Positions 2,311 to 23,783 of a DNA stretch of 23,783 nucleotides are shown here, piece after piece (the stretch's first letter is position 1; every line of letters starts with the position of its first letter). The stretch covers positions 1 through 23,783 of IMG/VR virus record IMGVR_UViG_3300025305_000142; one strand, 5' to 3'. The stretch is from a virus. The translations under genes were made by a program, and so were the position numbers. Under the pieces are notes generated by a model. It was given only the letters and a program-made list of their open reading frames with translations. It was not told the origin of the DNA and did no database searches.

Positions 2311-2535
2311 AAACGTTAACTTGTACTTTGTTCTAACGTTCCTATATTATTACTATGCGAATTAGTCGGAGAGCCAAAAAAGTAATTTCTTGGCGTTTTA
2401 TATCCATGACCTTGGCCACGTTAATTTGTTATCCATTCATAGGATCGATGACGAAATCTATTGGCCTAACGTTAATAATCAACGCCATTATGACGGTTGT
2501 ACATTATTACTTCGAGAAATGGTGGGAACGTTAAT
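2311..2535. repeat. AACGTTAA-type motif cluster in a gene-free stretch
   Basis: The 324 bases between 2211 and 2534 hold no credible gene; only ORFs of about 20 codons without SD were seen. Five copies of an ACGTTAA/AACGTT core lie at about 2313, 2335, 2418, 2469 and 2528, several with the palindrome AACGTT. Isolated copies occur at about 1549, 4300 and 11411. Function is unknown; binding sites for a regulator or a decayed gene are both possible. Confidence 0.5.
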
Positions 2536-9658: not shown

Positions 9659-10006
9659 TTAGCACCCACTAGGGATTTTTTCCCATGCTGGATCGAAAGG
9701 GTTGTAAGTTATTGAATTCTTTACCTTTTCTTGTAGCCACTTCGAGAACTCGTGGGCGACGTCTTTGCGAAAACCGCCGACGCTCCACAAGATTTGAGCA
9801 GTTGGGTATTGACAAGCGTTAGCTTTGTAATCATAAAGGGTTACAACGTCACCGTTTTCATCCTCAAAAAGCCATTCCATCGTCACTTTGTCACTTTCGC
9901 CTCGATGGTCTTTGCCAATGGCTCCGATGATTTGGTTTGCGGTGAAAGGCCCAACCTTCGTTTGAAGGTGGCTCATGTTCGTTGATTTTTCTGAACGCTT
10001 AAACAT
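9659..10006 (-). CDS. Hypothetical protein, 115 residues
   Basis: ATG at 10006 with AAGGA five bases upstream; a second ATG ten codons later (MSHLQTKVGPF) is a weaker alternative. Mixed alpha/beta composition with acidic turns (WLFEDENGDVVTLYDYKANA) and a C-terminal amphipathic helix (EFSKWLQEKVKNS). No motif recognised. It overlaps the previous stop by eight bases and can also be transcribed from the promoter at 10048-10075. Confidence 0.75.
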   Translation of the reverse strand: MFKRSEKSTNMSHLQTKVGPFTANQIIGAIGKDHRGESDKVTMEWLFEDENGDVVTLYDYKANACQYPTAQILWSVGGFRKDVAHEFSKWLQEKVKNSITYNPFDPAWEKIPSGC

Positions 10007-10235
10007 CGTTTTCCTTTTTGCCGTAGTTTTTAACGGCTCGTGTAATCATTATAGGAACGCTTTTCTTGTGGACAAGGGTTAAAACCTCATCAAGCAACGA
10101 TTGTATCTCTATGATATCACTGTCAAATTGCTCGTTTAGTTCCAGCTTCTCTCCAAGTAGCTGAGATTGTTCAAGATATTTCTTAGCTCGATTGAGCTTT
10201 ACTTTAAGATGTTGAAATGTTTCAGCTTTTTGCAT
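9999..10235 (-). CDS. Small coiled-coil protein overlapping a promoter
   Basis: 78 residues from the ATG at 10235, with GAGG six bases upstream. Mostly one long helix (KVKLNRAKKYLEQSQLLGEK, SDIIEIQSLLDEVLTLV), likely a coiled coil. Residues about 54-63 (L-V-H-K-K-S-V-P-I-M) are encoded by the promoter at 10048-10075, so this promoter lies fully inside coding sequence. No family recognised. Confidence 0.75.
   Translation of the reverse strand: MQKAETFQHLKVKLNRAKKYLEQSQLLGEKLELNEQFDSDIIEIQSLLDEVLTLVHKKSVPIMITRAVKNYGKKENDV
10048..10075 (-). promoter_or_regulatory. Early-type promoter inside the coiled-coil gene
   Basis: TTGTCC (10070-10075), 16-base spacer ending GTTCC, consensus TATAAT (10048-10053). 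Predicted start about 10041; drives the gene at 10006. Confidence 0.8.
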
Positions 10236-10401
10236 TTTGGACCTCGACTAGTTGAAGTTGATAGGACATGAACGGGTAATATTTGCCGTCAAGCAATATC
10301 TTATAGCATGGCGTGAGCCCGATGAGATACGAAACCCCGGCAACCAAACCGATCGGATAACCATCGACCTTGCAAACTCTCACTAGGTCACCGATTTTCA
10401 C
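10222..10401 (-). CDS. KVGDLV-family beta-barrel-like protein
   Basis: 59 residues from a GTG at 10401, with GGAGG six bases upstream. Starts (V)KIGDLVRVCKVDGYPIGLV and has the central strand Y-K-I-L-L-D-G. The C-terminus (LVEVQNAKS) is a variant of the family's E-V-I end; it encodes the SD and overlaps the start of the next gene by 14 bases. The fold is inferred to be a small SH3/KOW-like barrel; ligand unknown. Confidence 0.75.
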   Translation of the reverse strand: MKIGDLVRVCKVDGYPIGLVAGVSYLIGLTPCYKILLDGKYYPFMSYQLQLVEVQNAKS

Positions 10402-10591
10402 TGATTACCTCCAAACAAAAATCAGCATGACGTGCGAGGTACCCGTTTTGACACTGAACGTGATAAGCCTGATGCTTCCAAGCACTCTCGCGAGGATCGA
10501 ACGGCAGCTTCTCGATGATTATTCCCATCGTGCCGTCTGGAGCGTGACGAGAGCCGTATCTAATTATTCTCACTAGGTCACCCACTTTCAC
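10388..10591 (-). CDS. KVGDLV-family beta-barrel-like protein
   Basis: 67 residues from a GTG at 10591 (GGAAG nearby upstream); a longer frame to 10627 lies inside the previous gene and is rejected. MKVGDLVRIIRYG, then G-T-M-G-I-I-I-E-K, a Cys/His-bearing insert (YHVQCQNGYLARHADFC) and the end LEVISENR. The last codons overlap the start of the next gene by 14 bases. Confidence 0.8.
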   Translation of the reverse strand: MKVGDLVRIIRYGSRHAPDGTMGIIIEKLPFDPRESAWKHQAYHVQCQNGYLARHADFCLEVISENR

Positions 10592-10745
10592 TAATGACTT
10601 CCAAAAGAGTACCAGAACAAGAACCAATCTCGCCAGTGTCTAAAATCATGAAACTGGGATACTTATAACCCCCAGATTCTTTAATCTCAATCACTAGCGC
10701 AATCCAGTTGTAGTCAATCCGTTTCACGAGGTCACCGGCTTTCAT
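10578..10745 (-). CDS. KVGDLV-family beta-barrel-like protein
   Basis: 55 residues from the ATG at 10745, with GGAG seven bases upstream. MKAGDLVKRIDYNWIALVIEI, then Y-P-S-F-M-I-L-D-T-G and the family end LLEVISESG. The final 14 bases also encode the start of the next gene. An upstream in-frame start at 10808 lies within the previous gene and lacks an SD. Confidence 0.8.
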   Translation of the reverse strand: MKAGDLVKRIDYNWIALVIEIKESGGYKYPSFMILDTGEIGSCSGTLLEVISESG

Positions 10746-10905
10746 TAACCAACTCCAACTCGCCCAGCGGAATCCATACTGGTTCTGAACATTCGGGAAT
10801 ATACGCAAGCACCGCAGGGTTGACGCTCTTCGGCGGCTTAGTTTTCAAAACAATCCCCAGCAATTTGCCGCGATCCTTCCATCTTACCAAATCACCGACT
10901 TGCAC
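10732..10905 (-). CDS. KVGDLV-family beta-barrel-like protein
   Basis: 57 residues from a GTG at 10905 (GGAGG six bases upstream). MQVGDLVRWKDRGKLLGIVL, a Pro-rich loop, then P-V-W-I-P-L-G and the end ELELVNESR. Starts inside the last codons of the gene ending at 10892, and its own end holds the start of the next gene. Confidence 0.8.
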   Translation of the reverse strand: MQVGDLVRWKDRGKLLGIVLKTKPPKSVNPAVLAYIPECSEPVWIPLGELELVNESR

Positions 10906-11101
10906 TTATAACCTCCAAGTCACGCGAAAGGCTCCGTATAGATCGCGCCCCATATTTAGGGTGTTCCGTCAGTTGAACAATAAAAATGGGCCAATTCATG
11001 TCATCGTCGTAAGGCGTATGACATTCTGTGATTAGGCCGATGGTGTTATTAGGAACACCAATTCGAGCCCTTGTAGTTTTTACTAGATCACCGGGTTGCA
11101 T
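10892..11101 (-). CDS. KVGDLV-family beta-barrel-like protein
   Basis: 69 residues from the ATG at 11101 (GAGG six bases upstream, inside the E-V codons of the gene before). MQPGDLVKTTRARIGVPNNT, then IGLITECHTP, W-P-I-F-I-V-Q-L and DLEVISASR. Chained by 14-base overlaps at both ends. Confidence 0.8.
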   Translation of the reverse strand: MQPGDLVKTTRARIGVPNNTIGLITECHTPYDDDMNWPIFIVQLTEHPKYGARSIRSLSRDLEVISASR

Positions 11102-11285
11102 TCAGAACCTCAAAGTCTCGTGGGCTTTCCCAAGTCATTGTTTCACCAATGTGCGCTGGTTTCGCTGGCCAACTGATTTTGTAACGGTAAACGCCGATGG
11201 CGACGCGTTCTACCGTGTGTATTAAACCCGTGCCTTCATAAGTGCTGGCATGGGGTTTATAAATAACTAAATCACCGACTTTCAT
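11088..11285 (-). CDS. KVGDLV-family beta-barrel-like protein
   Basis: 65 residues from the ATG at 11285 (AAGG six bases upstream). MKVGDLVIYKPHASTYEGTG, then L-I-H-T-V-E-R-V and Y-R-Y-K-I-S-W, ending DFEVLNATR. 14-base overlaps at both ends. Confidence 0.8.
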   Translation of the reverse strand: MKVGDLVIYKPHASTYEGTGLIHTVERVAIGVYRYKISWPAKPAHIGETMTWESPRDFEVLNATR

Positions 11286-11451
11286 TTATCACCTTCAAAC
11301 ATACGCTAACTTCTGCCGTGGGAGTGCGCCTGGTTGTCCAAAGCACCAAAACTCCAACACTGTGTTTAGGTACGCCGACTTCCGTCACCAAACCAATCCC
11401 CAACGAAGGAACGTTAATATGTTTTACTAAATCGCCGGGTTTCATTTTCAT
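11272..11451 (-). CDS. KVGDLV-family beta-barrel-like protein, head of a run
   Basis: 59 residues if it begins at ATG 11451, which overlaps the stop of the membrane-protein gene (ATGA); an ATG two codons later (11445) gives MKPGDLVKHINVPSLGIG. Family features: G-L-V-T-E-V, V-G-V-L-V-L-W and the end LKVINESR. It heads the run down to 10222 and is transcribed from the promoter at 11480-11507, which lies inside the upstream gene. The SD is a weak AAGAAGAAG purine tract. Confidence 0.75.
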   Translation of the reverse strand: MKMKPGDLVKHINVPSLGIGLVTEVGVPKHSVGVLVLWTTRRTPTAEVSVCLKVINESR

Positions 11452-11561
11452 TTTCTTCTTCTTTTGTCTTCGTATTTAAACAATAGGAACACAACTCCAG
11501 TCGTCAAGACCAAATTGAGTACGAACATCCCAAGCGCCTGAAACGCAACGGCTACAGACAT
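11448..11561 (-). CDS. 37-residue membrane protein overlapping a promoter
   Basis: ATG at 11561 overlaps the stop of the upstream gene (TAATG). A single hydrophobic segment (VAFQALGMFVLNLVLTTGVV, continuing FLLF) is followed by a basic tail (KYEDKRRRK), predicting one membrane helix. The transmembrane codons L-V-L-T-T-G-V-V-F-L-L-F coincide with the promoter at 11480-11507, so the sequence serves both roles. Too short for family assignment. Confidence 0.65.
   Translation of the reverse strand: MSVAVAFQALGMFVLNLVLTTGVVFLLFKYEDKRRRK
11480..11507 (-). promoter_or_regulatory. Early-type promoter inside the membrane-protein gene
   Basis: TTGACG (11502-11507), 16-base spacer ending GTTCC, TATTGT (11480-11485). 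Predicted start about 11473, leader about 22 nt before the ATG at 11451. Confidence 0.75.
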
Positions 11562-11803
11562 TAACGGCGGCCTTCGATCCAATCAGTTTTTGAATTAGAA
11601 AAGTCGTTGAACTCTTCTTCTTCTTTGAGAATTTTAGCACTTTCCTCTTGAAGTAGAGGCACCAGCTTTTCCTTCAATCTTTGAAGGTTGCTCACGAAGC
11701 GATCCGCCCGTGGGTCGAGCTTCGCTAGCAGTTTGGCAGCGTCAAGAGCGTTAAGAACGCCAGCAGCCATAACTATCGTAGCATTGAGTTTTTCGTCAGA
11801 CAT
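11561..11803 (-). CDS. Helical hypothetical protein
   Basis: 80 residues from the ATG at 11803, with GGAG seven bases upstream. An Ala/Leu-rich N-terminal helix (ATIVMAAGVLNALDAAKLLA) and a charged coiled-coil-like stretch (LQRLKEKLVPLLQEESAKI) lead to an acidic end. No family recognised. Transcribed from the promoter at 11827-11854; leader about 17 nt. Confidence 0.75.
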   Translation of the reverse strand: MSDEKLNATIVMAAGVLNALDAAKLLAKLDPRADRFVSNLQRLKEKLVPLLQEESAKILKEEEEFNDFSNSKTDWIEGRR

Positions 11804-11826
11804 GTTTCATCTCCGTTGTTGTGTCA

Positions 11827-11854
11827 ACTATAAGAACGATCTTCCGATGGTCAA
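11827..11854 (-). promoter_or_regulatory. Early-type promoter whose -35 holds a stop codon
   Basis: TTGACC (11849-11854), 16-base spacer ending GTTCT, TATAGT (11827-11832). The TGA stop of the upstream gene (11851-11853) is part of the -35 hexamer. Confidence 0.8.
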
Positions 11855-12027
11855 TACCAATCTGAAGAAACTTCTGTTGAAATCCGTTCTAGCGAGCCTG
11901 AACCCCAGCCGTTCTTTCCATCGATTGAATCAAGCTCAGACATGTCTAAATCCTCGAAATCAAAAGGAATTTCCTCTTCATCACCCTCTTTTTTCAAATC
12001 TTTTCCATATATCGCGTACCAGTCCAT
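11851..12027 (-). CDS. Small acidic hypothetical protein
   Basis: 58 residues from the ATG at 12027 with GAGG seven bases upstream. Acidic throughout (KKEGDEEEIPFDFEDLDMSE), ending in S-S-D-W-Y. The stop lies in the -35 of the next promoter. It follows the VWA-like gene by eight bases and may be co-transcribed with it. An accessory role to that protein is only a guess. Confidence 0.7.
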   Translation of the reverse strand: MDWYAIYGKDLKKEGDEEEIPFDFEDLDMSELDSIDGKNGWGSGSLERISTEVSSDWY

Positions 12028-12035
12028 AATTCACC

Positions 12036-13289
12036 TCACTTTGCAATTGCGATTACACGCTCGTTTGTCTTGAAGTATGGGCGGCGGGCACTTTCCGCGT
12101 CCGTCATCCACATGCGGGCACATTTGCTGGACTTAGGCTTAGGGGCGCACATATCCGTAAGGACGATGTGAGCATCAAATCTGCCAGCATTAACGTATTC
12201 GGTAGGAGCATTGAAACACGTTCCACCGTAGAGAACACGTTCACGTTTGCGGGTTTCACCCTTACGCCACTGATATACTTTGTCCTCGGCAACGCGCGTG
12301 TCAAAGGGAATGACCGTGAAGGTTGCGATCTCAGCCAACTTGTTAAGTTCGGAGTAAAACACCGCTAACATACTGTCAGACACCGAACCAGATTGATCGA
12401 TAGAAATGGCAATATTCGCTTGTCTACGGACTTTGCGGCCAGGATGGACGTAAGGGTAGCGTTTGTTGAGACGCTTCACTGTGGAGCGTTTCTCGGCCCT
12501 CTGAGAGCATTTGACGAAGTAACGTAGCACTTTGCGCCAGTCAAGCACCGGAGAAATCCGATCCATGATCTCTTTTCTCATCGATGAAGAAATGGACCCC
12601 CAAGAATTGACCTTCGATGCATCGTCAGCAGCCTGTTTAACAGCGTCGGTAAGGCGTTGCTTCGCGATCTCTTTTGTCGCAGTATCGCAGGCTTTTCCGC
12701 CCCATTGGCTATGGTCATCGAAAGAATCCATATCACTTAAAGATCCTTTAGAATCGCCCTCAGAATCCTCGCCAGAACCATCTTCTGGTTTTCCTTCTTT
12801 CTCTTTTTCTTCCTGCTCGGCCTTTTCTTTCAGCTTTGCGTAATAGTATTCAGTGCTTTGAAATTCTGGAAACTCCTCGAAATAGCCATGACCAGGAAAG
12901 CAGCCATTTTCAGGCAAGTTCTCTTTGCCAATGTGACAGTTGATAGAAAGATCAGCTGCGATATTGTACAACTTGAACAGGGCTTGCTTCTCAGGATCAA
13001 CTTGACCCTCAAAGATACCAGCCAGTTCATCAGGCAAGCGGCCAAGGATATGCTCCATCACAAGATGATAAAACTCATGTACAAGTACGCCGGAGCGCTG
13101 CTTATCACTCTCCAAGCCCTCAAAGAACTCAGGGTTATAAAGCAACTCAAAGAAACCCGTGTCAGGATTGATACGGACACCGGCAGTCGGGATGTTCTTA
13201 TCCTCAGTCTTATCGACGTTACGCGAAAGAGAAGCAAAGAAAGGCTCATCTTGAAGCAAGCGAAAGATATGATCGTTAAGGTTGAACAT
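12036..13289 (-). CDS. VWA-like protein with N-terminal zincin-type domain
   Basis: 417 residues; ATG at 13289 with GGGGAG five bases upstream. The N-terminal domain contains H-E-F-Y-H (residues 71-75) with a further E79, the zincin HExxH pattern of VWA-like/DUF2201-type proteins. An acidic Ser/Glu-rich linker spans about 155-195. The C-terminal domain has MIDAS-type residues: D-Q-S-G-S at 298-302, T357 in G-G-T, and D379 in V-L-T-D-M. In cellular relatives such proteins act as metal-binding partners of MoxR AAA+ ATPases in remodelling or maturing targets. The MoxR gene is directly upstream, and each has its own early-type promoter. The phage target is unknown. Confidence 0.88.
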   Translation of the reverse strand: MFNLNDHIFRLLQDEPFFASLSRNVDKTEDKNIPTAGVRINPDTGFFELLYNPEFFEGLESDKQRSGVLVHEFYHLVMEHILGRLPDELAGIFEGQVDPEKQALFKLYNIAADLSINCHIGKENLPENGCFPGHGYFEEFPEFQSTEYYYAKLKEKAEQEEKEKEGKPEDGSGEDSEGDSKGSLSDMDSFDDHSQWGGKACDTATKEIAKQRLTDAVKQAADDASKVNSWGSISSSMRKEIMDRISPVLDWRKVLRYFVKCSQRAEKRSTVKRLNKRYPYVHPGRKVRRQANIAISIDQSGSVSDSMLAVFYSELNKLAEIATFTVIPFDTRVAEDKVYQWRKGETRKRERVLYGGTCFNAPTEYVNAGRFDAHIVLTDMCAPKPKSSKCARMWMTDAESARRPYFKTNERVIAIAK

Positions 13290-13324
13290 GATGCTCCCCT
13301 AATAAGTAGTTGTCTTACACTGTA

Positions 13325-13352
13325 AAGATAAGCACCCCTCAACAATCGTCAA
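13325..13352 (-). promoter_or_regulatory. Early-type promoter of the VWA gene
   Basis: TTGACG (13347-13352), 16-base spacer ending GTGCT, TATCTT (13325-13330), GTGTAA four bases on. Predicted start about 13318. It is embedded in a dyad (13330-13361). Confidence 0.8.
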
Positions 13353-13361
13353 GGGGTGCTT
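13330..13361. repeat. Dyad spanning the VWA promoter
   Basis: A perfect 10-bp inverted repeat (AAGCACCCCT / AGGGGTGCTT, 12-base loop) covers the interval from just upstream of the -35 to the edge of the -10. It could be an operator, or a hairpin ending the MoxR transcript. Confidence 0.6.
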
Positions 13362-13364
13362 GTG

Positions 13365-13402
13365 AAAAAAATGAACAGGGTTGCCACGTCGGGCCAGCAA
13401 CC
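13365..13402 (-). terminator. Possible intrinsic terminator after the MoxR gene
   Basis: Hairpin GGTTGC / GCAACC (13379-13402) on the minus strand is followed seven bases later by seven T residues (13371-13365). The distance to the T run is long, so this is tentative. The interval 13403-13477 holds nothing else recognisable beyond a 20-codon ORF without SD. Confidence 0.4.
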
Positions 13403-13477
13403 TAGCCCAGCCTGCTTTCTACATCCGTTAAAGACCGTTCAGGACAGGCGTTGAACAGCATCATAGTTGAGTCATAG

Positions 13478-14542
13478 CTATTCATTTTTTCCGGTGAGCA
13501 TAGTAACCATGCGAGTTGAAACTTTCGTACCATCTTCGGCCTTTGACTTGTGAAGCGCGATGACGTTCTCATTCACGCCTTTGCCAATCGACGTCCAGAG
13601 TTTCATTGCTGGCTCGGAAGGAAGACACACGAAGTAGTTAGCCAAGTTTTGGATCTGAGTCTCATCGAGAACCGCGGCAAAGGCATTGCTAGCTTCGATT
13701 TTCTCGATCAGCGCGCAATGCTCGTTGATGCCAAAGTTCGACGTCTTGTCGATCTTACCATCGTCGAGGATCATCTCAACCGTTACTTGACGCTCATAGT
13801 TTTGAACGAAGTCATTGAAAGCAACAGCAGCCTCGAAACCAACAAACGCAGTGGCAAGGTGGTAAATCGAAGACTTGTCCGTATGTTCGGAAAGAAAGTC
13901 AGCGGTTACGAGACAATCGTTGAAACGCTTCCAGGATCGGCGCGAAGGATAAACTTTGTTAGGCTCGAAATCAGTCTGATGCTCCAAGTGAGAACGATTC
14001 TGATTGATGAAGTCCCAAACAACGCCATCGACCTCGACCTTGGCCCAGTCGAGCCAATCCTCAATCGTCGGCTCGACGTCAAAGACCGTCCATCGATCAA
14101 GCTCAGCAGGGTCCATCTCGCCAACCTGATATTGCGAACCGTGGTCGCCACCGTTGATTGCAGCAACGATGACGGTATCGGGATGGAGGTGATTACCAAA
14201 CAGTTTGCGTGAATCTGTTAGCTCGAATAGACCCTGCCTCACTTCTGTGACGGCGCGATCGACCTCATCGAAAAAGAGGACAACACCACTGTCGCAAGCC
14301 GTCTGAAACCAATCAGGTGGACAAAATGAAGTAACGTCCCCATCAGTCTTGGGAAGACCGACCAGATCGCCTTCAGTCATTTGTGAAGCGCGGCGCTCGA
14401 TAACAGGCTTGCAAAGCAAACTTGCAAGTTGATAAACAACCTCGGATTTGCCGACACCATGTCGGCCACGAAGAAGAATTGGCTTGCGAACCGCCGCGAC
14501 GTGCGGGGCAACTTGATTAAATGTTTTGAAATCGATGGCCAT
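13478..14542 (-). CDS. MoxR-type AAA+ ATPase
   Basis: 354 residues; ATG at 14542 with AAGGAG about seven bases upstream. Walker A is G-R-H-G-V-G-K-S (26-33). Walker B is V-V-L-F-F-D-E-V-D (87-95). Sensor-1 Asn is in A-A-I-N (N130), and L-D-R-W (148-151) holds an arginine at the usual MoxR position. The M-T-E-G-D-L-V-G segment (55-62) is typical of MoxR proteins. The product should form a hexameric ATP-driven remodelling ring, with the VWA-like protein encoded just downstream as probable partner. Both use their own early-type promoters, implying expression during takeover rather than assembly (inference). Confidence 0.92.
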   Translation of the reverse strand: MAIDFKTFNQVAPHVAAVRKPILLRGRHGVGKSEVVYQLASLLCKPVIERRASQMTEGDLVGLPKTDGDVTSFCPPDWFQTACDSGVVLFFDEVDRAVTEVRQGLFELTDSRKLFGNHLHPDTVIVAAINGGDHGSQYQVGEMDPAELDRWTVFDVEPTIEDWLDWAKVEVDGVVWDFINQNRSHLEHQTDFEPNKVYPSRRSWKRFNDCLVTADFLSEHTDKSSIYHLATAFVGFEAAVAFNDFVQNYERQVTVEMILDDGKIDKTSNFGINEHCALIEKIEASNAFAAVLDETQIQNLANYFVCLPSEPAMKLWTSIGKGVNENVIALHKSKAEDGTKVSTRMVTMLTGKNE

Positions 14543-14596
14543 GTTACATCTCCTTGAGTAACTAGGTTAATAAATATTGTTTCCGTCTACACTACT

Positions 14597-14624
14597 AAGA
14601 TAGGAACCAGCTTACCATGGTCAA
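14597..14624 (-). promoter_or_regulatory. Early-type promoter of the MoxR gene
   Basis: TTGACC (14619-14624), 16-base spacer ending GTTCC, TATCTT (14597-14602), GTGTAG four bases on. The TGA stop of the upstream gene (14621-14623) lies in the -35. Predicted start about 14590. Confidence 0.85.
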
Positions 14625-15229
14625 CCAGTTTTTTTAACTTTTTTCAAGTATCTTTCTTCAGTCCAGAAGGGTGCAGACGCACCAACGGGGATGACGTACA
14701 CGGGTCGCGCATTTTTAGCAGCCGAAGCTAGCTTGGTCGCGTCATGCTCCAATACCATCACCATTTTGTTCCTATAACGTGCAGCATGGCCATTGGCGTT
14801 GGCTCGAATACGGACCATGGAACCAACAGCATAAATCGGATCAGTTTTGACGATATCGATGACCTTAACCGCGTATTTATTCTCGCACATAGCGCGGAAT
14901 GCTTTCTCCGTTGGGATGTAAACTTCTTCGTCCAAAACTCGTCGAGCCAAATCCTGGAAGTACGGAGGATTATTAAGGTAATAGCTAGCCATGATGACCA
15001 TCTTTTCACGCATTTCAGGCGTGTATTCCTCTTTCCACTTGCGAAGCGCAGCTTTCTTGTCTTCGCTGTACTTGGACTCGATGTTCTGGAGGGTGCCATT
15101 CTGACGATGTGACAGGTTGCGACCCTTGCCAACCTGCTGAGAAAGGGAGTCTAGGAAATTACGTTCCCAGTCAGTGAGAAGTTTCTCTTGAGTTAGCTTT
15201 TCTAGCCTTTCTTGAATTTTGTCAGTCAT
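14621..15229 (-). CDS. Phage protein with helical N-terminus and SH3-like C-terminus
   Basis: 202 residues from the ATG at 15229, with GGAG six bases upstream; an in-frame start five codons earlier has no better SD. The N-terminal 70 residues are helical and charged (KIQERLEKLTQEKLLTDWER, SEDKKAALRKWKEEY). The C-terminal part (about 135-200) has a small-barrel look (YAVGSMVRIRANANGHAARY, then KMVMVLEHDATKL) like the GDLV proteins. I recall similar phage proteins but no assigned function. The stop lies in the next promoter. Confidence 0.75.
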   Translation of the reverse strand: MTDKIQERLEKLTQEKLLTDWERNFLDSLSQQVGKGRNLSHRQNGTLQNIESKYSEDKKAALRKWKEEYTPEMREKMVIMASYYLNNPPYFQDLARRVLDEEVYIPTEKAFRAMCENKYAVKVIDIVKTDPIYAVGSMVRIRANANGHAARYRNKMVMVLEHDATKLASAAKNARPVYVIPVGASAPFWTEERYLKKVKKTG

Positions 15230-15258
15230 TTTTGACTCCAGCAATCGGTTACACTCTA

Positions 15259-15286
15259 ACTATAGGCACAACCGACTCTTGGACAA
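15259..15286 (-). promoter_or_regulatory. Early-type promoter upstream of the gene at 15229
   Basis: TTGTCC (15281-15286), 16-base spacer ending GTGCC, TATAGT (15259-15264), GTGTAA four bases on. Predicted start about 15252. Confidence 0.85.
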
Positions 15287-15292
15287 GAAAAA

Positions 15293-15391
15293 TTAAAGCA
15301 AACCGTAAGAAATGATGGCCAGGGCGGCTATTAAACACACCCGAACCATGTGCATCAAAAAATCTTCAAGCCTTTTCAAGATATCCATCAT
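15293..15391 (-). CDS. 32-residue membrane peptide
   Basis: ATG at 15391 overlaps the stop of the zinc-knuckle gene (ATGA), with GAGG 10 bases upstream. An amphipathic start (MMDILKRLEDFLMHMV) leads to a hydrophobic stretch (VCLIAALAIISYGLL), suggesting one membrane helix. It ends just before the promoter at 15259-15286. Confidence 0.55.
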   Translation of the reverse strand: MMDILKRLEDFLMHMVRVCLIAALAIISYGLL

Positions 15392-16185
15392 ACCGTGATA
15401 CCTCTTTTATTAAGTTCGTCATGCAGATCACGTGGTAAACGCCAGCGCTCTTTGCCACACTCATCGATCAGTCCCTGAGCCATCTTTTCACACGATTCAT
15501 ATGAAGGCGGGCAAGGTATAAGACCTCTTTGTTTCTCATCAAGCGGCGTTACAATCTTAATACGGGCGGATCTCGCTTTACCAGAAGAAAATTGGCGATA
15601 ATCGTAGGTTTCATCCAACGTGTTCCAGAAATCCATCGCTCTGATTGGTAGCGGCGCTCGGCCATTGACAACACCTTTTGGATGGTTAACATACGAAACG
15701 GCTGTCACGGTTGCTGAGAGCATGGTTTCGTCACCACCGACAATCATTTGGTGTGAAAGCCTATCGAAGTCTATACTTGTAACAATCCCAAGATACACAT
15801 TTTCGACGTGGCTCCTCGTGTCTGAATCCCAGTCGTTAGTGGTGTGTGAGATAAGAGCGCCGACGCCAAAGCCTTTCTCGTGAAAAGATTTGTGCAACCT
15901 CTCGCGACCTTCGTAAATCATGCCAGCATAGACGTCAACGTCAGCTTTTCTGGTGCTACAAGTTCGCTTCGTATGACCGGGCTGGCTACAGTAGGAGCAT
16001 TTGCGATTGTTTGCTCTTTCGGCTTTGCGCTTCTTTTTTTCGAAATACCTTTCGGCATTGCGGCGCTCGTATGAATTATCTGAACTAAGCCAACTTTCAT
16101 ATTGCTCGCGAAGAGCAGCACAGCTTGCGCGGTTGTGACCGTATTCATAACAATGACCACATCTAACAGTATTATTCCAGGACAT
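15388..16185 (-). CDS. Protein with two CCHC zinc knuckles
   Basis: 265 residues from the ATG at 16185, with GGAGG five bases upstream. Two retroviral-type C-x2-C-x4-H-x4-C knuckles: C9/C12/H17/C22 (CGHCYEYGHNRASC) and C63/C66/H71/C76 (CSYCSQPGHTKRTC), joined by a basic helical linker (FEKKKRKAERANNRK). The rest (about 85-265) is a globular region with beta-like strands (VENVYLGIVTSIDF, SATVTAVSYV) and no recognised fold. Such knuckles bind single-stranded RNA or DNA, so an RNA-binding regulator is plausible. Driven by its own early-type promoter. Confidence 0.85.
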   Translation of the reverse strand: MSWNNTVRCGHCYEYGHNRASCAALREQYESWLSSDNSYERRNAERYFEKKKRKAERANNRKCSYCSQPGHTKRTCSTRKADVDVYAGMIYEGRERLHKSFHEKGFGVGALISHTTNDWDSDTRSHVENVYLGIVTSIDFDRLSHQMIVGGDETMLSATVTAVSYVNHPKGVVNGRAPLPIRAMDFWNTLDETYDYRQFSSGKARSARIKIVTPLDEKQRGLIPCPPSYESCEKMAQGLIDECGKERWRLPRDLHDELNKRGITV

Positions 16186-16214
16186 TTTGTCCTCCATCCA
16201 TCAATTACACAACA

Positions 16215-16242
16215 ACTATAGGAACAAGCTATTCATCGTCAA
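16215..16242 (-). promoter_or_regulatory. Early-type promoter of the zinc-knuckle gene
   Basis: TTGACG (16237-16242), 16-base spacer ending GTTCC, TATAGT (16215-16220), GTGTAA four bases on. The -35 encodes I-D of the upstream gene, whose stop falls in the spacer. Confidence 0.85.
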
Positions 16243-16402
16243 TGGGAAAAAACACAGGAAAGAATTCAATGTGATCATTCAAGTCTTTCTTTAATGATTC
16301 CAAGTTCTTGAACACGATGGCAGCGACCTCTTTATCCTCTTCGAGAAGGCGGGTGTGGGTGTCTTCCATGTATCCTATCAAAAATCGCAACAAGCTATCC
16401 AA
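16229..16402 (-). CDS. Small acidic helical protein
   Basis: 57 residues if begun at the TTG at 16402, which has GAGG six bases upstream and overlaps the previous stop by eight bases. An ATG at 16369 (MEDTHTRLLEEDKEVAAIVF) is the alternative. Helical acidic body (FKNLESLKKDLNDHIEFF) and a hydrophobic/acidic tail whose last codons lie in the promoter at 16215-16242. No family recognised. Confidence 0.6.
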   Translation of the reverse strand: MDSLLRFLIGYMEDTHTRLLEEDKEVAAIVFKNLESLKKDLNDHIEFFPVFFPIDDE

Positions 16403-16619
16403 TTGGAGCCTCGCTGATGACCTTGAGCATCTTTTGAGGCCACGTGTCCCTAACCTCTTCAATATTCAACCAAGTAACGATAGGCATTTGTGTAAGATCT
16501 TCCTTGTCGGTTACAATGCCGATAATGCCGGAAGGCCAATGCTCGTAGCCGCCATCAGGATCTGACGTCGGTGCGCGATCCAAAAGCTCAACCAAATCGC
16601 CAACTTTAGCTAGCTGCAT
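16395..16619 (-). CDS. KVGDLV-family beta-barrel-like protein
   Basis: 74 residues from the ATG at 16619 with GGAG seven bases upstream. MQLAKVGDLVELLDRAP has a short N-terminal extension. Then GIIGIVTDKED, M-P-I-V-T-W-L and the family end LKVISEAPIG. Its start lies in the last 14 bases of the gene before. Confidence 0.8.
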   Translation of the reverse strand: MQLAKVGDLVELLDRAPTSDPDGGYEHWPSGIIGIVTDKEDLTQMPIVTWLNIEEVRDTWPQKMLKVISEAPIG

Positions 16620-16779
16620 TTAGCAACTCCATACCCCACTCGCCAACAGTTTCCTGTGTTGGCGTGCGAAACTTGGCCCACCGAACTGTGACTACGGTAC
16701 TCTTCTTACATTCATATAAATCTGTGATTATTCCAACGTCATCATCGTGAACACATTTTACTAGGTCACCGACTTTCAT
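16606..16779 (-). CDS. KVGDLV-family beta-barrel-like protein
   Basis: 57 residues from the ATG at 16779. MKVGDLVKCVHDDDVGIITD, then V-V-T-V-R-W and the end MELLNAAS. Its start is inside the last codons (Y-E-S-R-stop) of the pyrophosphohydrolase-like gene; the SD (GGAAC) is weak. Its own last 14 bases encode the start of the next gene. Confidence 0.8.
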   Translation of the reverse strand: MKVGDLVKCVHDDDVGIITDLYECKKSTVVTVRWAKFRTPTQETVGEWGMELLNAAS

Positions 16780-17068
16780 ACTGTTCCAATATGATTCTAT
16801 CCTTGAATCCGCCTCGTTCTTTTCGCTTATTTTCTACAGCCAACTTTAAACGAGGCATCTTTATCTCGTGTAACTCGCAAATTGAAAGGAAAACTTCCCA
16901 CATATCCGCTGCCTCTTCGTAACACGGTGTATTAACAAATTCATCAAGCTCTTCGCGCATCTTTTCATATAAACGCGCTTTATATTCGTCATAGTTGGCA
17001 ACGTGATAAACACAAGCCCTCCCGTCCTTCTCGATGATAAGGGGAATAAAGTCTCTAACTAGCTTCAC
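16766..17068 (-). CDS. MazG/PRA-PH-like nucleotide pyrophosphohydrolase
   Basis: 100 residues from a GTG at 17068 with GAGG six bases upstream; this gives the family-typical start M-K-L-V-R-D-F-I-P, whereas the longer frame to 17125 lies inside the previous gene. The helical core carries E-E-L-D-E-F (residues 40-45) and E-E-A-A-D-M-W-E-V (51-59), matching the metal-binding ExxE...ExxD pattern of all-alpha NTP pyrophosphatases. The C-terminus has K-R-K-E-R-G-G-F. Likely hydrolyses non-canonical or excess (d)NTPs. It ends in ...Y-E-S-R because its last codons are also the start of the next KVGDLV gene, so it is embedded in that chain. Confidence 0.8.
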   Translation of the reverse strand: MKLVRDFIPLIIEKDGRACVYHVANYDEYKARLYEKMREELDEFVNTPCYEEAADMWEVFLSICELHEIKMPRLKLAVENKRKERGGFKDRIILEQYESR

Positions 17069-17237
17069 TAATGACCTCACAACCTCTTTCGACGTATTTC
17101 TTTGGAAGCCAATGTGGTTTTCCATCGGTGCATAAAACTAGGTAGGGTTCTTTTTTCCTGCGATCTACGATCTCAAGAATCATTCCAATGCCGTCCTCGG
17201 GCCAACGCAAATCTCTTATCAAATCGCCTATATTCAT
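17055..17237 (-). CDS. KVGDLV-family beta-barrel-like protein, probably leaderless
   Basis: 60 residues from the ATG at 17237: MNIGDLIRDLRWPEDGIGMI, then Y-L-V-L-C-T-D-G and GCEVISEAS. The ATG begins seven bases after the -10 of the promoter at 17244-17271, and no SD precedes it. A transcript from that promoter would therefore be leaderless. An upstream TTG frame lies within the promoter spacer. The last 14 bases contain the start of the pyrophosphohydrolase-like gene. Confidence 0.75.
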   Translation of the reverse strand: MNIGDLIRDLRWPEDGIGMILEIVDRRKKEPYLVLCTDGKPHWLPKKYVERGCEVISEAS

Positions 17238-17243
17238 ACTATT

Positions 17244-17271
17244 ATTATAGGCACCGTTTTTCAATGGTCAA
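17244..17271 (-). promoter_or_regulatory. Early-type promoter with consensus -10
   Basis: TTGACC (17266-17271), 16-base spacer ending GTGCC, TATAAT (17244-17249). The upstream gene ends S-V-D-H-stop through the -35 and spacer. Confidence 0.85.
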
Positions 17272-17461
17272 CGGACTGAGTTGTGCTTATCGACTCCAAT
17301 TCATAGTCTTTGAACCATTCATATAACAGTTCAAACCGGACTTTATACCAATAGAAGCCGTCATCATCCTCATATAATTCTAATACAATACCATAGACAT
17401 CTGTTGGATAACCGGAGTGTGCATAAAAAGGCCTTAATTTTACTACGTCACCGACATGCAC
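17261..17461 (-). CDS. KVGDLV-family beta-barrel-like protein
   Basis: 66 residues from a GTG at 17461 (GAGG six bases upstream, inside the previous gene's E-V codons). MHVGDVVKLRPFYAHSG, then V-Y-G-I-V-L-E-L, W-Y-K-V-R-F and YELESIS. Past the usual end it has seven extra residues (TTQSVDH) encoded by the promoter at 17244-17271. Confidence 0.8.
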   Translation of the reverse strand: MHVGDVVKLRPFYAHSGYPTDVYGIVLELYEDDDGFYWYKVRFELLYEWFKDYELESISTTQSVDH

Positions 17462-17636
17462 TGACGACCTCTAAATCAGTATGCTTGAATCTATATGAAA
17501 CGCCACCGAAATTTACATCAACACATCCCCACAACTCCTGTACGTGGACTTTGGTTATCAAACCAATTTTACTCTCATAAGGCAAACCTTTACGGGTTTT
17601 TCTTATAGACAACTTCGTTAAATCACCGACTTTCAT
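17448..17636 (-). CDS. KVGDLV-family beta-barrel-like protein
   Basis: 62 residues from the ATG at 17636. MKVGDLTKLSIRKTRKGLPY, then K-I-G-L-I-T-K-V, V-D-V-N-F-G-G and DLEVVSACR. Starts in the last 14 bases of the GIY-YIG gene, and its end holds the next start. Confidence 0.8.
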   Translation of the reverse strand: MKVGDLTKLSIRKTRKGLPYESKIGLITKVHVQELWGCVDVNFGGVSYRFKHTDLEVVSACR

Positions 17637-17880
17637 TGATAACCTTTTCCTTTTGTTTTCGTGTTAACTGCTTAAAATTATATTCGGCTATCTGTGCAGT
17701 CGATTGATTCTCAAAGTCCACGCAGTATACCAATTCCACTGGGCGGCGAGATCTCGTGTATCTCGAACCACGTTTGCTCGTGTTATGTTCATTCAGTCGC
17801 CTGGAAATGTCAGTGGTCACGCCGGTGTATAACGTGCCGTCGCTACATCGTAGGACATAAAGAAACCATTCTTTAACCAC
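17623..17880 (-). CDS. GIY-YIG domain protein (UPF0213/YhbQ-like)
   Basis: 85 residues from a GTG at 17880 with GAGG six bases upstream. The domain fills the protein: F-L-Y-V-L-R-C (6-12) and L-Y-T-G-V-T (17-22) replace the G-I-Y and Y-I-G strands, followed by R26-R27, H31 and a Tyr-rich basic segment. Size and sequence fit single-domain UPF0213 proteins and small GIY-YIG nucleases. No DNA-binding extension is present. It sits mid-chain among KVGDLV genes and ends V-I-N-E-S-R, the same overlapping junction as theirs. Confidence 0.88.
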   Translation of the reverse strand: MVKEWFLYVLRCSDGTLYTGVTTDISRRLNEHNTSKRGSRYTRSRRPVELVYCVDFENQSTAQIAEYNFKQLTRKQKEKVINESR

Positions 17881-18076
17881 TGACTACCTCAACCCAGCCT
17901 TTGTCTATGGCCACAAATTCGCACCTCAATGCTTTCTTATCGCCAGACCACAGAATATCGATGCAATTTTCCGTCTCGGTGATTGGGTCACGCGACCATC
18001 TCACAGTATACGGTTCGCTAGCGACGACACCATAGCTGCCATCGTGATTATCTTTTACAAGGTCACCGATTTTCAT
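17873..18076 (-). CDS. KVGDLV-family beta-barrel-like protein
   Basis: 67 residues from the ATG at 18076 with GGAG six bases upstream. MKIGDLVKDNHDGSYGVVAS, a strand with C-I-D-I-L-W-S-G and VEVVSG. Residues 36-57 resemble the gene at 18597-18812 (CIDVLWFGSEK), so these two are close paralogs. Its end contains the GTG of the GIY-YIG gene. Confidence 0.8.
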   Translation of the reverse strand: MKIGDLVKDNHDGSYGVVASEPYTVRWSRDPITETENCIDILWSGDKKALRCEFVAIDKGWVEVVSG

Positions 18077-18091
18077 TATTTTCTCCGTTTT

Positions 18092-18187
18092 TTATACGGC
18101 TAGGCCATGGGCCAGGATAGAAATCACCCCAGCAAACACTAAAATTCTAAACAGGTTGTCAGCCTCTTTTGCTATGTTATTTTTCAT
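18092..18187 (-). CDS. 31-residue membrane peptide
   Basis: ATG at 18187 with AGGAG six bases upstream. A charged start (MKNNIAKEADNLFR) is followed by a hydrophobic segment (ILVFAGVISILAHGLAV) to the end, suggesting one membrane helix. First gene after the promoter at 18207-18234, with a leader of about 13 nt. Confidence 0.6.
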   Translation of the reverse strand: MKNNIAKEADNLFRILVFAGVISILAHGLAV

Positions 18188-18206
18188 TTTTTACTCCTAC
18201 ATGCAT

Positions 18207-18234
18207 AATATAGTGACTATTTTTACTAAGTCAA
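18207..18234 (-). promoter_or_regulatory. Sigma70-type promoter with stop codon in -35
   Basis: TTGACT (18229-18234), 16-base spacer lacking the GTKCY end, TATATT (18207-18212). The TGA stop of the upstream gene (18231-18233) is part of the -35. Confidence 0.75.
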
Positions 18235-18431
18235 ACAGAATTTATTATTTCTGCTTCCCAATATGGCTCATCAAAAGTCACGTGCCCCTCGTCAGTATAT
18301 ATGTTAAATATCCGATATGAATCTGGGACGATGGTCTTATATTTAATACCAGTGACTATGCCTAATGCCGAATAAGTCACAGGGAAACGCTCATCAGGAT
18401 CATAAACCCTAATTAAATCACCGACTTTCAC
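18231..18431 (-). CDS. KVGDLV-family beta-barrel-like protein
   Basis: 66 residues from a GTG at 18431 (GAGG six bases upstream). MKVGDLIRVYDPDERFPVTY, then A-L-G-I-V-T-G-I, R-I-F-N-I-Y-T-D-E-G and E-A-E-I-I-N-S-V. The stop lies in the -35 of the next promoter. Confidence 0.8.
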   Translation of the reverse strand: MKVGDLIRVYDPDERFPVTYSALGIVTGIKYKTIVPDSYRIFNIYTDEGHVTFDEPYWEAEIINSV

Positions 18432-18600
18432 TTATGACCTCGATTGTTTCGTCTGGCCGCCATGAAATATATGGATTTCTACCCAGCTTCATTCCCTCAG
18501 ATGGTTCGAACCAGTATACCTCCCACATTGAATCAATAGTTTCCGATAAAACAATCCCAGTTATTTCTGAGTATCTGTCTTTTACAAGATTTCCTATCAT
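18418..18600 (-). CDS. KVGDLV-family beta-barrel-like protein, divergent start
   Basis: 60 residues from the ATG at 18600, overlapping the previous stop (ATGA). MIGNLVKDRYSEITGIVLSE, then W-E-V-Y-W-F-E and IEVISESR. The start is shortened relative to MKVGDLVK, and the junction is a simple ATGA rather than the 14-base overlap. Its own end has the full overlap. Confidence 0.8.
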   Translation of the reverse strand: MIGNLVKDRYSEITGIVLSETIDSMWEVYWFEPSEGMKLGRNPYISWRPDETIEVISESR

Positions 18601-18812
18601 ATTACAACCTCTACAGAACCATTTTCAATAGCTGAATAATCAACACGGCTGGGCTTTTCGCTACCAAACCACAAAACATCGATGCATCGTGCATTAAACT
18701 CCCAGCCTTGACCGGAACTACTAATATCATAGGGTAGGCGCGCAATGACGCCATATTCAGGCGGCGATGTAGCTAACAAGCCATCGGTTTTTACCAAATC
18801 ACCCACCTTCAC
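18597..18812 (-). CDS. KVGDLV-family beta-barrel-like protein
   Basis: 71 residues from a GTG at 18812 with GGAGG six bases upstream. MKVGDLVKTDGLLATSPPEY, then G-V-I-A-R-L, C-I-D-V-L-W-F-G and SVEVVI. Close paralog of the gene 17873-18076. Confidence 0.8.
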   Translation of the reverse strand: MKVGDLVKTDGLLATSPPEYGVIARLPYDISSSGQGWEFNARCIDVLWFGSEKPSRVDYSAIENGSVEVVI

Positions 18813-19047
18813 TTATAACCTCCAGGCCATGGCCAAATGTTGTTCCCGCGTAAAGTTTATGTGTGAACCATTGTTTATGTGTGAACCATTGTACGAACCA
18901 GCGCGGTTGGGCGGTACCGGGTGAAGTCGGCGGGACACCTGGCAATTCTTCTACTACTAGCCCAATAGTTCCATTAGGAAGGCCACCCATGGACCGAGCT
19001 TCTCTTACTATAACCAGATCGCCGACTTTTAGTTTATTCTTCGCCAT
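18799..19047 (-). CDS. KVGDLV-family protein with an internal tandem repeat
   Basis: 82 residues from the ATG at 19047, inside the last codons of the HD gene; no strong SD. MAKNKLKVGDLVIVREARS, then GTIGLVVEELPG, and LEVISEGG. Residues Q-W-F-T-H-K are repeated in tandem (18855-18890). It heads the second KVGDLV chain. Confidence 0.8.
   Translation of the reverse strand: MAKNKLKVGDLVIVREARSMGGLPNGTIGLVVEELPGVPPTSPGTAQPRWFVQWFTHKQWFTHKLYAGTTFGHGLEVISEGG
18855..18890. repeat. 18-bp tandem duplication in coding sequence
   Basis: GTTTATGTGTGAACCATT occurs twice back to back, adding six residues in frame. The copies are identical, so the duplication is probably recent. Confidence 0.95.
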
Positions 19048-21926: not shown

Positions 21927-21954
21927 TTCTTTTCCTATTCTTTTACTTTATTAA

Positions 21955-22189
21955 TGGAGGCGTGCGGTATCGAACCGCAGTCCTAAATGCTTTAATATTT
22001 TGCGATATACAAGGTTTAAAAATTGTTAACCCGGTTTTGGGTAACAAGGAAACCGGAAACCCCGCCATAGCTTACGCAGCCATTGGTAGTGCTACATCGT
22101 TTGCAGCTATTGTTTCGAGCCTTATAATGTTTGCTCATACATCCTTGCACAAAATATCTCCCTCATCTAGTCGAAGCCATTTCGCCCCC
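21955..22189 (-). ncRNA. ssrA: Compact phage tmRNA
   Basis: 235 nt. Acceptor stem GGGGGCG (22183-22189) pairs with CGCCTCC (21956-21962), including G3-U70, the alanine identity pair, with discriminator A at 21955 and no encoded CCA. T-arm TGCGG-TTCGATA-CCGCA and a TLD of the type GGGGGCGAAATGGCTTCGAC are as in other tmRNAs. Helix P2 pairs ATATTTTG (22150-22157) with CAAAATAT (21995-22002), and TGCAAGG (22143-22149) with CCTTGTA (22008-22014). Pseudoknot 1 (22117-22142: ATGT/ACAT crossed with GAGC/GCTC) precedes the tag. Pseudoknot 2 (22023-22056: CCGGTTT/AAACCGG crossed with TTGTTA/TAACAA) follows it. tmRNA with SmpB rescues stalled ribosomes and tags the nascent chain. Host tmRNAs are usually about 350-400 nt with more pseudoknots, so this is a reduced form. 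Confidence 0.95.
22072..22104 (-). other. tmRNA tag reading frame
   Basis: GCA resume codon at 22102-22104 through TAA at 22072-22074 encodes A-N-D-V-A-L-P-M-A-A-stop. Upstream ACAATAGCT resembles the conserved resume-setting bases of other tmRNAs. The first residues match A-N-D of E. coli (ANDENYALAA); the end is M-A-A rather than L-A-A. Confidence 0.9.
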
Positions 22190-23033: not shown

Positions 23034-23783
23034 TTAAATAACTTCTTCGCCTGCTCCCGCCGCTGCGGGTGCTTCTCCACCAAGTTCTCCACCAAGTTCT
23101 GCGTCAAATTCTGCGCCAGCTTCAGTGCCAGCTTCGTCTTCGTCTTTTTCTGCTTCATATTCATCTGTTGTTGGCTCCGTTACTGCTCCAAGTTCTTGTT
23201 CCCATTTATCAAAATATAATTTTAAATTTGTAATGAGATAATCTTGAAAAAGTTTTTCATCACTTTCATCATGCAATATAGCATAAGTTTCAGTAATATT
23301 TTTCTCTATATTATTAAAAGCTTCTTGTGCGAGTGCTCGTCCAGTTGCATCTTGGCCTTCAATACCAAATGTATCTGGCTCTTCTGGTTCTTGGGGTTCA
23401 GCTTCTATATCAATAAATTTATCATCAGCTGGAGCATCAACATCGGATACTTTAATATCTACCTCTTCTTCGATATCGCCTTCTTCTTCGTCTAAACTAA
23501 TTAATCCTTCTTCTTCGCCAGCGGCTCCGCCAGCTTTATTAATATCTTCGGTGTCCAAAAGCGTAGAAACGGCATTAACAACATGTGCTCTGAAAGAATC
23601 GCGCTGTTCCCTGGCAGTTGTTAGTGTTTTAAATTCTGTTTCAAGATTCGGGAGAATTTGCTTAAGTAAGTCTTCAAGAATATTAATTGCTGTTGAAGAG
23701 TGAGGAGTATCTTCAATATCTTTTTTTGCTTCTTGAATTAAGTGGCGAACAACTTTTCTAATTTGCATCTCATCGTCTTCAAC
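23034..23783 (-). CDS. Acidic protein, N-terminus possibly outside window
   Basis: The frame stays open from the stop at 23034 to the right edge. The first ATG in the window (23768) has no SD and is preceded by in-frame V-E-D-D-E codons, so the start may lie outside. Visible: M-Q-I-R-K-V-V-R-H-L-I-Q-E-A (resembling the MKITK-type peptide and containing L-I-Q-E), a helical segment, and a long Glu/Asp-rich region. A C-terminal half with E-A/G-rich repeats ends A-A-A-G-A-G-E-E-V-I. It may be a scaffold-like or virion protein (inference from acidity and the peptide). No domain recognised. Confidence 0.75.
   Translation of the reverse strand, partial: VEDDEMQIRKVVRHLIQEAKKDIEDTPHSSTAINILEDLLKQILPNLETEFKTLTTAREQRDSFRAHVVNAVSTLLDTEDINKAGGAAGEEEGLISLDEEEGDIEEEVDIKVSDVDAPADDKFIDIEAEPQEPEEPDTFGIEGQDATGRALAQEAFNNIEKNITETYAILHDESDEKLFQDYLITNLKLYFDKWEQELGAVTEPTTDEYEAEKDEDEAGTEAGAEFDAELGGELGGEAPAAAGAGEEVI

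Follow-up and report, generated by a model that had tools for sequence, protein, structure and literature searches.

A recurrent coding joint marks the gain and loss of small genes in arrays of uncultured phages

Two runs of small genes in a 23,783-base stretch of viral DNA (IMG/VR record IMGVR_UViG_3300025305_000142; the whole stretch is called the window here) are, in our judgement, probably arrays of exchangeable cassettes, in which a shared coding joint lets exchange leave both neighbours usable. The minus strand of the window carries 17 genes of 55-82 codons each for a family of small SH3-like proteins that we named K, split into an upstream array (19047-16395) and a downstream array (11451-10222) that flank a conserved core including a MoxR-like ATPase and a DUF2201/VWA protein. 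A preliminary description of this DNA had reported that genes in these runs are chained by a recurrent 14-nucleotide (nt) overlap, and had proposed the junction as a homology site for cassette gain, loss and shuffling. The comparison of relatives bears out the exchange: cassettes have been gained, lost and reordered with breakpoints at the joint. The role of homology as its driver is one that we infer.

We fetched 80 relatives with the MoxR protein and dropped near-identical loci, which left 72 non-redundant sequences. A wider set that includes IMG/VR loci has K genes in 194 of 200 loci from 169 contigs, 1862 of 1864 on the array strand (the 1862 include repeats between overlapping loci; counting identical DNA once gives 1530). 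All relatives compared are uncultured contigs. K members were called with a hidden Markov model built from the window and one extension round, and 9 of 788 matches were dropped where the start codon was missing near the expected position. Non-K genes came from a simple longest-open-reading-frame caller, and pair counts kept only clusters of at least three or genes of at least 80 amino acids.

Relatives were scanned systematically for insertions and deletions (indels), skipping clusters of loci linked by long stretches at least 99% identical and counting each indel by contig pair and insert length. The scan gave 83 events, of which 68 touch arrays and 15 do not. All three breakpoints lie at K starts in 40 of the 68, one or two do so in 27 and none in 1; the 40 fully K-bounded indels represent 25 distinct inserts. 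The best crossover interval falls within -15 to +25 of the start codon, at the shared boundary sequence as recombination at module boundaries requires, in 35/40 events (23/25 distinct inserts). The 14-nt joint is present at the empty site in 40/40 cases, on the left of the filled site in 39/40 and on the right in 40/40; its presence at every empty site exceeds the background of 293/355 (p = 0.001, or p = 0.02 with the 25 distinct inserts). Modulo 3, insert length is consistent with whole cassettes in 30/40. Junction-bounded indels of the kind that the preliminary description had suggested looking for are thus seen at nucleotide resolution, some between phages with one flank 97-98.5% identical over kilobases. 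The left flanks of L011 and L012 are 97.1% identical over 4,980 base pairs (bp), with one extra K gene after a GIY-YIG gene; those of L122 and L130 are 98.5% identical over 3,562 bp, with four extra K genes; and those of L020 and L018 are 97.5% identical over 5,190 bp. The right flanks of these three pairs are shorter or less alike (88-95%). Hand-picked sites agree, including some with a non-K gene on the left (L066/L080) or on the right (L023/L024).

The same turnover is seen on the scale of whole arrays. Four core genes keep a constant order in the window, L001 and L002, with K content almost wholly different: L001 and L002 have 14 non-K genes but only 1 K gene in common at the DNA level, and the window has 1 K gene in common with L001 and 0 with L002. 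The preliminary description had named conserved gene order, with no change bounded by the junction, as the outcome that would count against it; the arrays are instead scrambled around a MoxR/VWA core whose order is kept. The cassette starting at 11285 shows 78-85% DNA identity to relatives in L046, L120 and L019/L145 (L019 and L145 are one contig), with similarity confined between at most 13 nt before its start and at most 23 nt into the next gene; a search with the gene body found further relatives in L033 and L035. For the remaining K genes of the window, the set contains few DNA-level relatives or none. Across the set, DNA similarity ends within -25 to +30 of a K start in 334/423 and 300/354 cases, against 224/777 for random in-gene positions. 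Similarity breaks at 103/132 K-K 14-nt joints and at 17/93 non-K boundaries (p = 2e-19, 3 ambiguous cases omitted), and inside the same pairs at 23/36 and 8/50, respectively. In these comparisons, turnover is specific to the arrays. Only 5 within-locus K pairs at least 75% similar were found among 1862 K genes, so new cassettes would mostly come from elsewhere. The sole nearly identical within-locus pair is found in L048 (14613 and 14975; 98.8% over 163 nt).

The joint itself has a regular anatomy. All 13 junctions listed in the preliminary description, and 19047/19034 as well, share one register on the minus strand and overlap by 14 nt; 10235/10222 brings the window total to 15. The wording given to the junction (GAGGT, an EVISESR end and an MKVGD start) holds as a consensus and fails as a constant: at the 13 joints, the upstream gene ends literally in EVISESR once (18431) and in ESR five times, the downstream gene starts with exact MKVGD at 6 and MxxGD at 11, and exact GAGGT occurs at 7. 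At joint 17068 the downstream gene is a non-K, pyrophosphohydrolase-like gene that starts MKLVRD, with stop TAG; at joint 16619 the downstream K gene starts MQLAKVGD, with stop TAA. Four K genes of the window lack the 14-nt overlap at their start: 18600 (4-nt overlap), 18076 (spacer), and 17237 and 11451 (other arrangements). The junction sequence GTGAAAGTCGGTGA, allowing up to 3 mismatches, occurs 12 times in the window against 1.94 expected, a number reached by 0/100 shuffles, and a simulation of gene starts from the window's own codons placed the first +2-frame stop at +11 in 8% of cases.

Among the 72 loci, K-K neighbours overlap by exactly 14 nt in 293/355 cases and by 4 nt in 34/355, whereas non-K pairs do so in 8/318 and 44/318, respectively; mixed pairs show the 14-nt overlap in 32/96 (K to non-K) and 21/106 (non-K to K). 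In the wider set, with identical DNA counted once, 709/879 K-K neighbours have it. An alignment of members gives the family consensus as an MKVGDLV start, a central G-I-V and an LEVISESR end. The start ATG AAA GTC GGT GA, shifted by two bases, reads GAA AGT CGG TGA, or E-S-R-stop; the ESR ending of the upstream gene therefore arises because the start of the next gene, read in the shifted frame, dictates it. The shared stop depends on the glycine codon GGT in the MxxGD start, which is used in 338/338 MxxGD genes with the overlap and in 137/226 genes with no overlap or one of at most 4 nt, compared with 29% of interior glycines (a looser count that includes repeats gives 402/405 for GGT in MxxGD genes). 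Junction base counts show conservation from about -12 to +20: T-G-G-A-G-G-T-n-A-T-n-A, then [A/G]TG, AAA GTC GGT GA and TTTGGTA, with the ribosome-binding-like GGAGGT 5 bases 5' of the start. In this way a K gene houses the ribosome site and start codon for its successor and the stop codon for its predecessor. No non-coding DNA lies at the 14-nt K-K joints, which are fully coding. K genes without the overlap also show part of the joint's base bias beyond the overlap, so common ancestry contributes to it. At two joints of G018:C1 (31968-31982 and 32556-32570) the sequence reads GGTAG, not GGTGA, and the shared stop there would be TAG.

The ends of the joint have also spread to unrelated genes. 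In all 7 contigs where a GIY-YIG gene precedes an overlapping K gene (window, L003, L011, L012/L196, L046, L120, L170), the GIY-YIG protein ends in ESR, and 12 other GIY-YIG genes have no ESR end (e.g. NPEDG, YGRK, EKSS; also DANR and NENR). The ESR ending noted in the preliminary description for the unrelated GIY-YIG gene of the window is thereby traced, in the window and in relatives, to the K gene that follows. The tail effect also occurs in other non-K clusters. At the opposite end, the GIY-YIG protein of L003 has a VKVGD start immediately before WWFYVLLC; a membrane-protein gene starts MKAGDLVF in L118 and VDINYLMF in a 70% relative in L127; and a small non-K gene starts MKPGDF in L004 and MKCDYS in L007. 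Found on unrelated genes, the ends behave as adaptors. In the window, the arrays and their core are laid out as follows.

18799-19047, minus strand: K gene, first of the upstream array, starting MAKNKLKVGDLV...; 14-nt overlap with an HD-domain gene.
18597-18812, minus strand: K gene; 14-nt junction 18812/18799.
18418-18600, minus strand: K gene starting MIGNLVK...; 4-nt overlap with the preceding gene.
18231-18431, minus strand: K gene; junction 18431/18418 with exact GTGAAAGTCGGTGA.
17873-18076, minus strand: K gene preceded by a spacer; ATGAAAATCGGTGA is kept though no listed gene overlaps its start.
17623-17880, minus strand: GIY-YIG domain gene within the array (Pfam PF01541, E 4.7e-17), with an INESR tail encoded inside the start of the following K gene.
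17448-17636, minus strand: K gene; junction 17636/17623.
17261-17461, minus strand: K gene; junction 17461/17448.
17055-17237, minus strand: K gene starting MNIGDLI..., without the 14-nt overlap at its start.
16766-17068, minus strand: pyrophosphohydrolase-like gene (the name given in the preliminary description), with a 14-nt overlap at each end; Pfam and PHROG scans gave no convincing match.
16606-16779, minus strand: K gene; junction 16779/16766.
16395-16619, minus strand: K gene closing the upstream array; its junction 16619/16606 has the differing sequence ATGCAGCTAGCTAA.
13478-14542, minus strand: MoxR-like AAA+ ATPase of the conserved core between the arrays, the query for fetching relatives.
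12036-13289, minus strand: DUF2201 metallopeptidase / VWA-like protein of the conserved core.
11272-11451, minus strand: K gene, first of the downstream array, starting MKMKPGDLV....
11088-11285, minus strand: K gene whose protein was modelled; DNA relatives in L046, L120 and L019/L145.
10892-11101, minus strand: K gene; junction 11101/11088, ATGCAACCCGGTGA.
10732-10905, minus strand: K gene; junction 10905/10892.
10578-10745, minus strand: K gene; junction 10745/10732.
10388-10591, minus strand: K gene; junction 10591/10578.
10222-10401, minus strand: K gene closing the downstream array; junction 10401/10388.
10222-10235, minus strand: 14-nt junction ATGCAAAAAGCTGA from a K gene into the non-K gene 9999-10235, absent from the preliminary description.

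The protein of 11088-11285, the one member modelled, is predicted by AlphaFold2 to be an SH3-like barrel with a mean predicted local distance difference test (pLDDT) score of 90. Its strands (6-9, 19-29, 32-38, 50-53 and 58-60 of 65 residues) form a small five-strand barrel, and its last five residues average pLDDT 68. In this model the parts encoded by the overlaps, residues 1-5 and the tail, lie outside the predicted strands. Matches to known proteins are weak throughout. Foldseek against the PDB returned HspQ, Spt5, PsaE and Tudor, all at E >0.04 (best 0.049), and unnamed or uncharacterised proteins lead in a viral structure library (best E 0.0046). Pfam families each matched at most 3/62 K members, KOW among them with 2/62 (best E 0.005); profile similarity to the KOW domains of Spt5 and NusG is weak (Spt5 chain, E 0.0034); and the unnamed phrog_1690 matched 6/62 members in a weak PHROG scan (best E 1.5e-5). 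The likeness to KOW and other SH3-like barrels (Spt5 and NusG KOW, HspQ, PsaE, Tudor) thus lies in predicted fold and weak profile similarity, and K differs from them as a stand-alone phage protein of ~60 residues borne in arrays. Our guess is that, as small SH3/KOW-like barrels, these proteins bind the transcription or translation machinery of the host.

We propose that each cassette spans the DNA between successive start codons. The 3' end of a cassette (LEVIS: the last beta strand, the GGAGGT ribosome site and A-[A/G]TG) would furnish the following gene with a ribosome site and start, and its 5' end (M-K-V-G-D in the codons given above) would provide the stop of the previous gene, giving an E/A-S-R end. 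Because the ~33-nt joint (-12 to +20) is near-uniform among cassettes and its overlapping part encodes residues outside the predicted folded core, exchange at the joint would damage neither neighbour, preserve the reading frames and keep translation coupled, no matter which genes are joined; both would remain usable because the joint carries the ribosome site, the start and the stop. Exchange would proceed across the joint by homologous or homeologous recombination, with the phage's own RecA/UvsX-type recombinase as its probable agent during co-infection. Such recombination is a likely but unproven driver, and the overlap may couple translation of the neighbours. Several features would argue for homology: the exact register is kept though other registers are viable, a RecA-family protein is encoded in 13/13 long records, and tyrosine and serine recombinase families matched 0/13. 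More tentatively, the joint may represent a natural, standardised coding recombination joint for a pool of small genes, each taking its stop from a neighbour and giving a ribosome site and start in return; genes that acquire both ends, as GIY-YIG genes have, could then join the pool and be shuffled from one co-infecting phage to another by a general recombinase, without an integrase or non-coding att sites, and any order would make a working polycistron.

Several observations weigh against the proposal of exchangeable cassettes. Ten of the 40 inserts lack the length modulo 3 expected of whole cassettes, and 135/777 similarity ends fall deep inside genes. K-K joints without the 14-nt overlap break in 24/36 cases, compared with 103/132 (p = 0.19), and neighbours are conserved at 32/206 14-nt joints and 33/168 others. 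We had expected faster turnover at the 14-nt joints than at other K-K joints and found no significant difference. The left and right junctions of filled sites share a short exact run (median 13 nt, range 7-30, at 31 sites), and RecA-type exchange usually needs longer identity than this median. Recombining junction pairs are alike at 24.8 of 33 nt, compared with 23.6 of 33 for random pairs (p = 0.03), a slight difference, although we had anticipated clearly greater likeness within filled sites than in random pairs. The indel events are not independent, since some compare near-identical phages, and exchange is read throughout from the comparison of uncultured contigs. Breakpoints at gene ends are also what whole-gene units would give by themselves.

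The strongest rival we regard as rather unlikely: illegitimate or microhomology exchange strikes at random places, selection retains whole genes, and the joint reflects common ancestry and tight packing without being a recombination site. The short exact identity at the junctions and the similar turnover of K-K joints without the 14-nt overlap both favour it. Other registers (4-nt overlaps and spacers) are, however, found at 62/355 K-K joints, yet all 40 empty sites carry the 14-nt register. The switch points at the joint in 35/40 events also speak against random joining, though whole-gene units would give the same result.

That a site-specific recombinase or nuclease, such as the GIY-YIG protein of the array, recognises the joint in integron-like fashion we consider very unlikely. 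The conserved ~33-nt joint and the GIY-YIG gene in some arrays speak for it, but the 14-nt joint is fully coding, the tyrosine and serine recombinase families, the ones looked for, are unmatched in the 13 long records, and only 6/47 full events (before contig de-duplication) involve a GIY-YIG-bearing locus, which makes that protein an unlikely general driver. Plain tandem duplication and divergence, with the overlap inherited and nothing shuffled, is highly improbable. It would account for related K genes chained on one strand, but close relatives differ by indels and moved genes, and the same ends sit on unrelated genes; as a main source of cassettes it is largely refuted by the filled and empty sites and by the scarcity of similar within-locus pairs. 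Metagenome misassembly at short repeats, conceivable for a repeated joint in contigs from uncultured phages, is hardly credible as a source of false orders: the same arrays recur under different metagenome numbers (L004/L005 at least 97% over 13,512 nt, L026/L027 over 16,958 nt), although possibly from related samples; the exact repeats present at the sites span only 7-30 nt; and the displayed inserts are intact open frames.

The carriers of exchangeable K cassettes appear, from their gene content, to be a group of uncultured, mostly T4-like phages. A T4-type portal (PF07230) was found in 11/12 long relatives. The 18 long records (157-236 kb) carry 1 to 27 K genes each. A 15-base joint pattern with at most 2 mismatches occurs in 16/18 of them; because 8 of the 18 were chosen for carrying the joint, the fair count is 8/10. 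At least 119 stretches of IMG/VR contain a strict 24-base form of the joint, as do 5 contigs from prokaryote assemblies, which have K genes in 5/5. One of these settings is L215 (CP070664.1, from an assembly labelled candidate division WOR-3), where K genes and the same joint lie in a contig labelled bacterial chromosome, perhaps integrated or assembled-in phage DNA; L212 and L214 are joint-bearing contigs in Halobacteriovorax metagenome-assembled genomes (including PBIO01000025.1), a weak host hint at best. The tyrosine recombinase family PF00589 matched 0/13 long records, which may be incomplete, and 14/14 control genomes. For the portal of one record, the best isolates among the matches listed, Microcystis and Flavobacterium phages, show 39-42% identity. 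Two isolates with a related portal protein gave no K match, an empty result that carries little weight; megablast of the array against isolated phages gave no match, and tblastn of the K consensus and one K protein against isolate phages gave none at E 1e-3 and 0.1.

Two features of the window lie outside the arrays. A phage-borne transfer-messenger RNA occupies 21952-22189 on the minus strand (ARAGORN tag ANDVALPMAA; Rfam RF00023, E 5.5e-34). The minus-strand genes 1219-1509, 1524-2210, 2535-3488 and, loosely, 23034-23768 encode otherwise different proteins with a common start like MKITKxxLKRIIKEE, and gene 1524-2210 has a second, internal copy of such a stretch; we assume that these starts may be a capsid-targeting leader.

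Work by Clark et al. in 2001 and Juhala et al. in 2000 reportedly described short conserved boundary sequences at the mosaic module joints of lambdoid phages. Those boundaries and the K joint are alike as short sequences common to gene boundaries of modules that vary among relatives. The K joint differs in lying inside both genes, in carrying ribosome site, start and stop together, in occurring many times per array and in its spread to unrelated genes. Integron gene cassettes, too, are small exchangeable genes lined up in arrays through a standard joint. K arrays differ from them in having no integrase family match (0/13 long records) and a coding joint that overlaps both genes; there is no non-coding DNA at the 14-nt K-K joints that could resemble attC, although no attC model was searched.

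Short boundary sequences at phage mosaic joints have been proposed to let general recombination swap modules, and in the Cluster I mycobacteriophages Island3 and Brujita a single small gene was gained or lost through the ~50-bp related 3' ends of neighbouring genes (PMC3029335). That difference is one event, compared with 40 events and 25 distinct inserts at one standard joint in the K arrays. The start-associated sequence (SAS) of Cluster K mycobacteriophages is a repeated 13-bp sequence upstream of gene starts that includes the ribosome site and for which a role in translation initiation was suggested (PMC3203893). It resembles the K joint as a start-associated repeat with a ribosome site, common to genes of different families; SAS stays upstream of starts, whereas the K joint extends into both reading frames and marks the borders of genes gained and lost. 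The SAS consensus given there, GGGATAGGAGCCC just upstream of starts, is not matched by the K junction base counts, which show another sequence. As far as we saw, none of these systems unites overlapping coding frames, genes that supply each other's start and stop, and an array of exchangeable genes; among the papers listed in searches of open-licence PubMed Central, titles and abstract openings revealed none on such arrays.

We regard the K arrays as an extension of phage module-boundary recombination. Phage mosaicism may stem from exchange where homology is limited or from joining at random followed by selection, a matter described as still under debate (PMC3945230). The K arrays make this question directly measurable: many related phages carry one standard joint, in unbroken runs of up to 12, and some events separate phages that have a flank 97-98.5% identical. 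Overlapping genes, which are expected to hinder rearrangement, can here serve it, the overlap acting as an adaptor, and the joint may offer a design rule for polycistrons built from parts.

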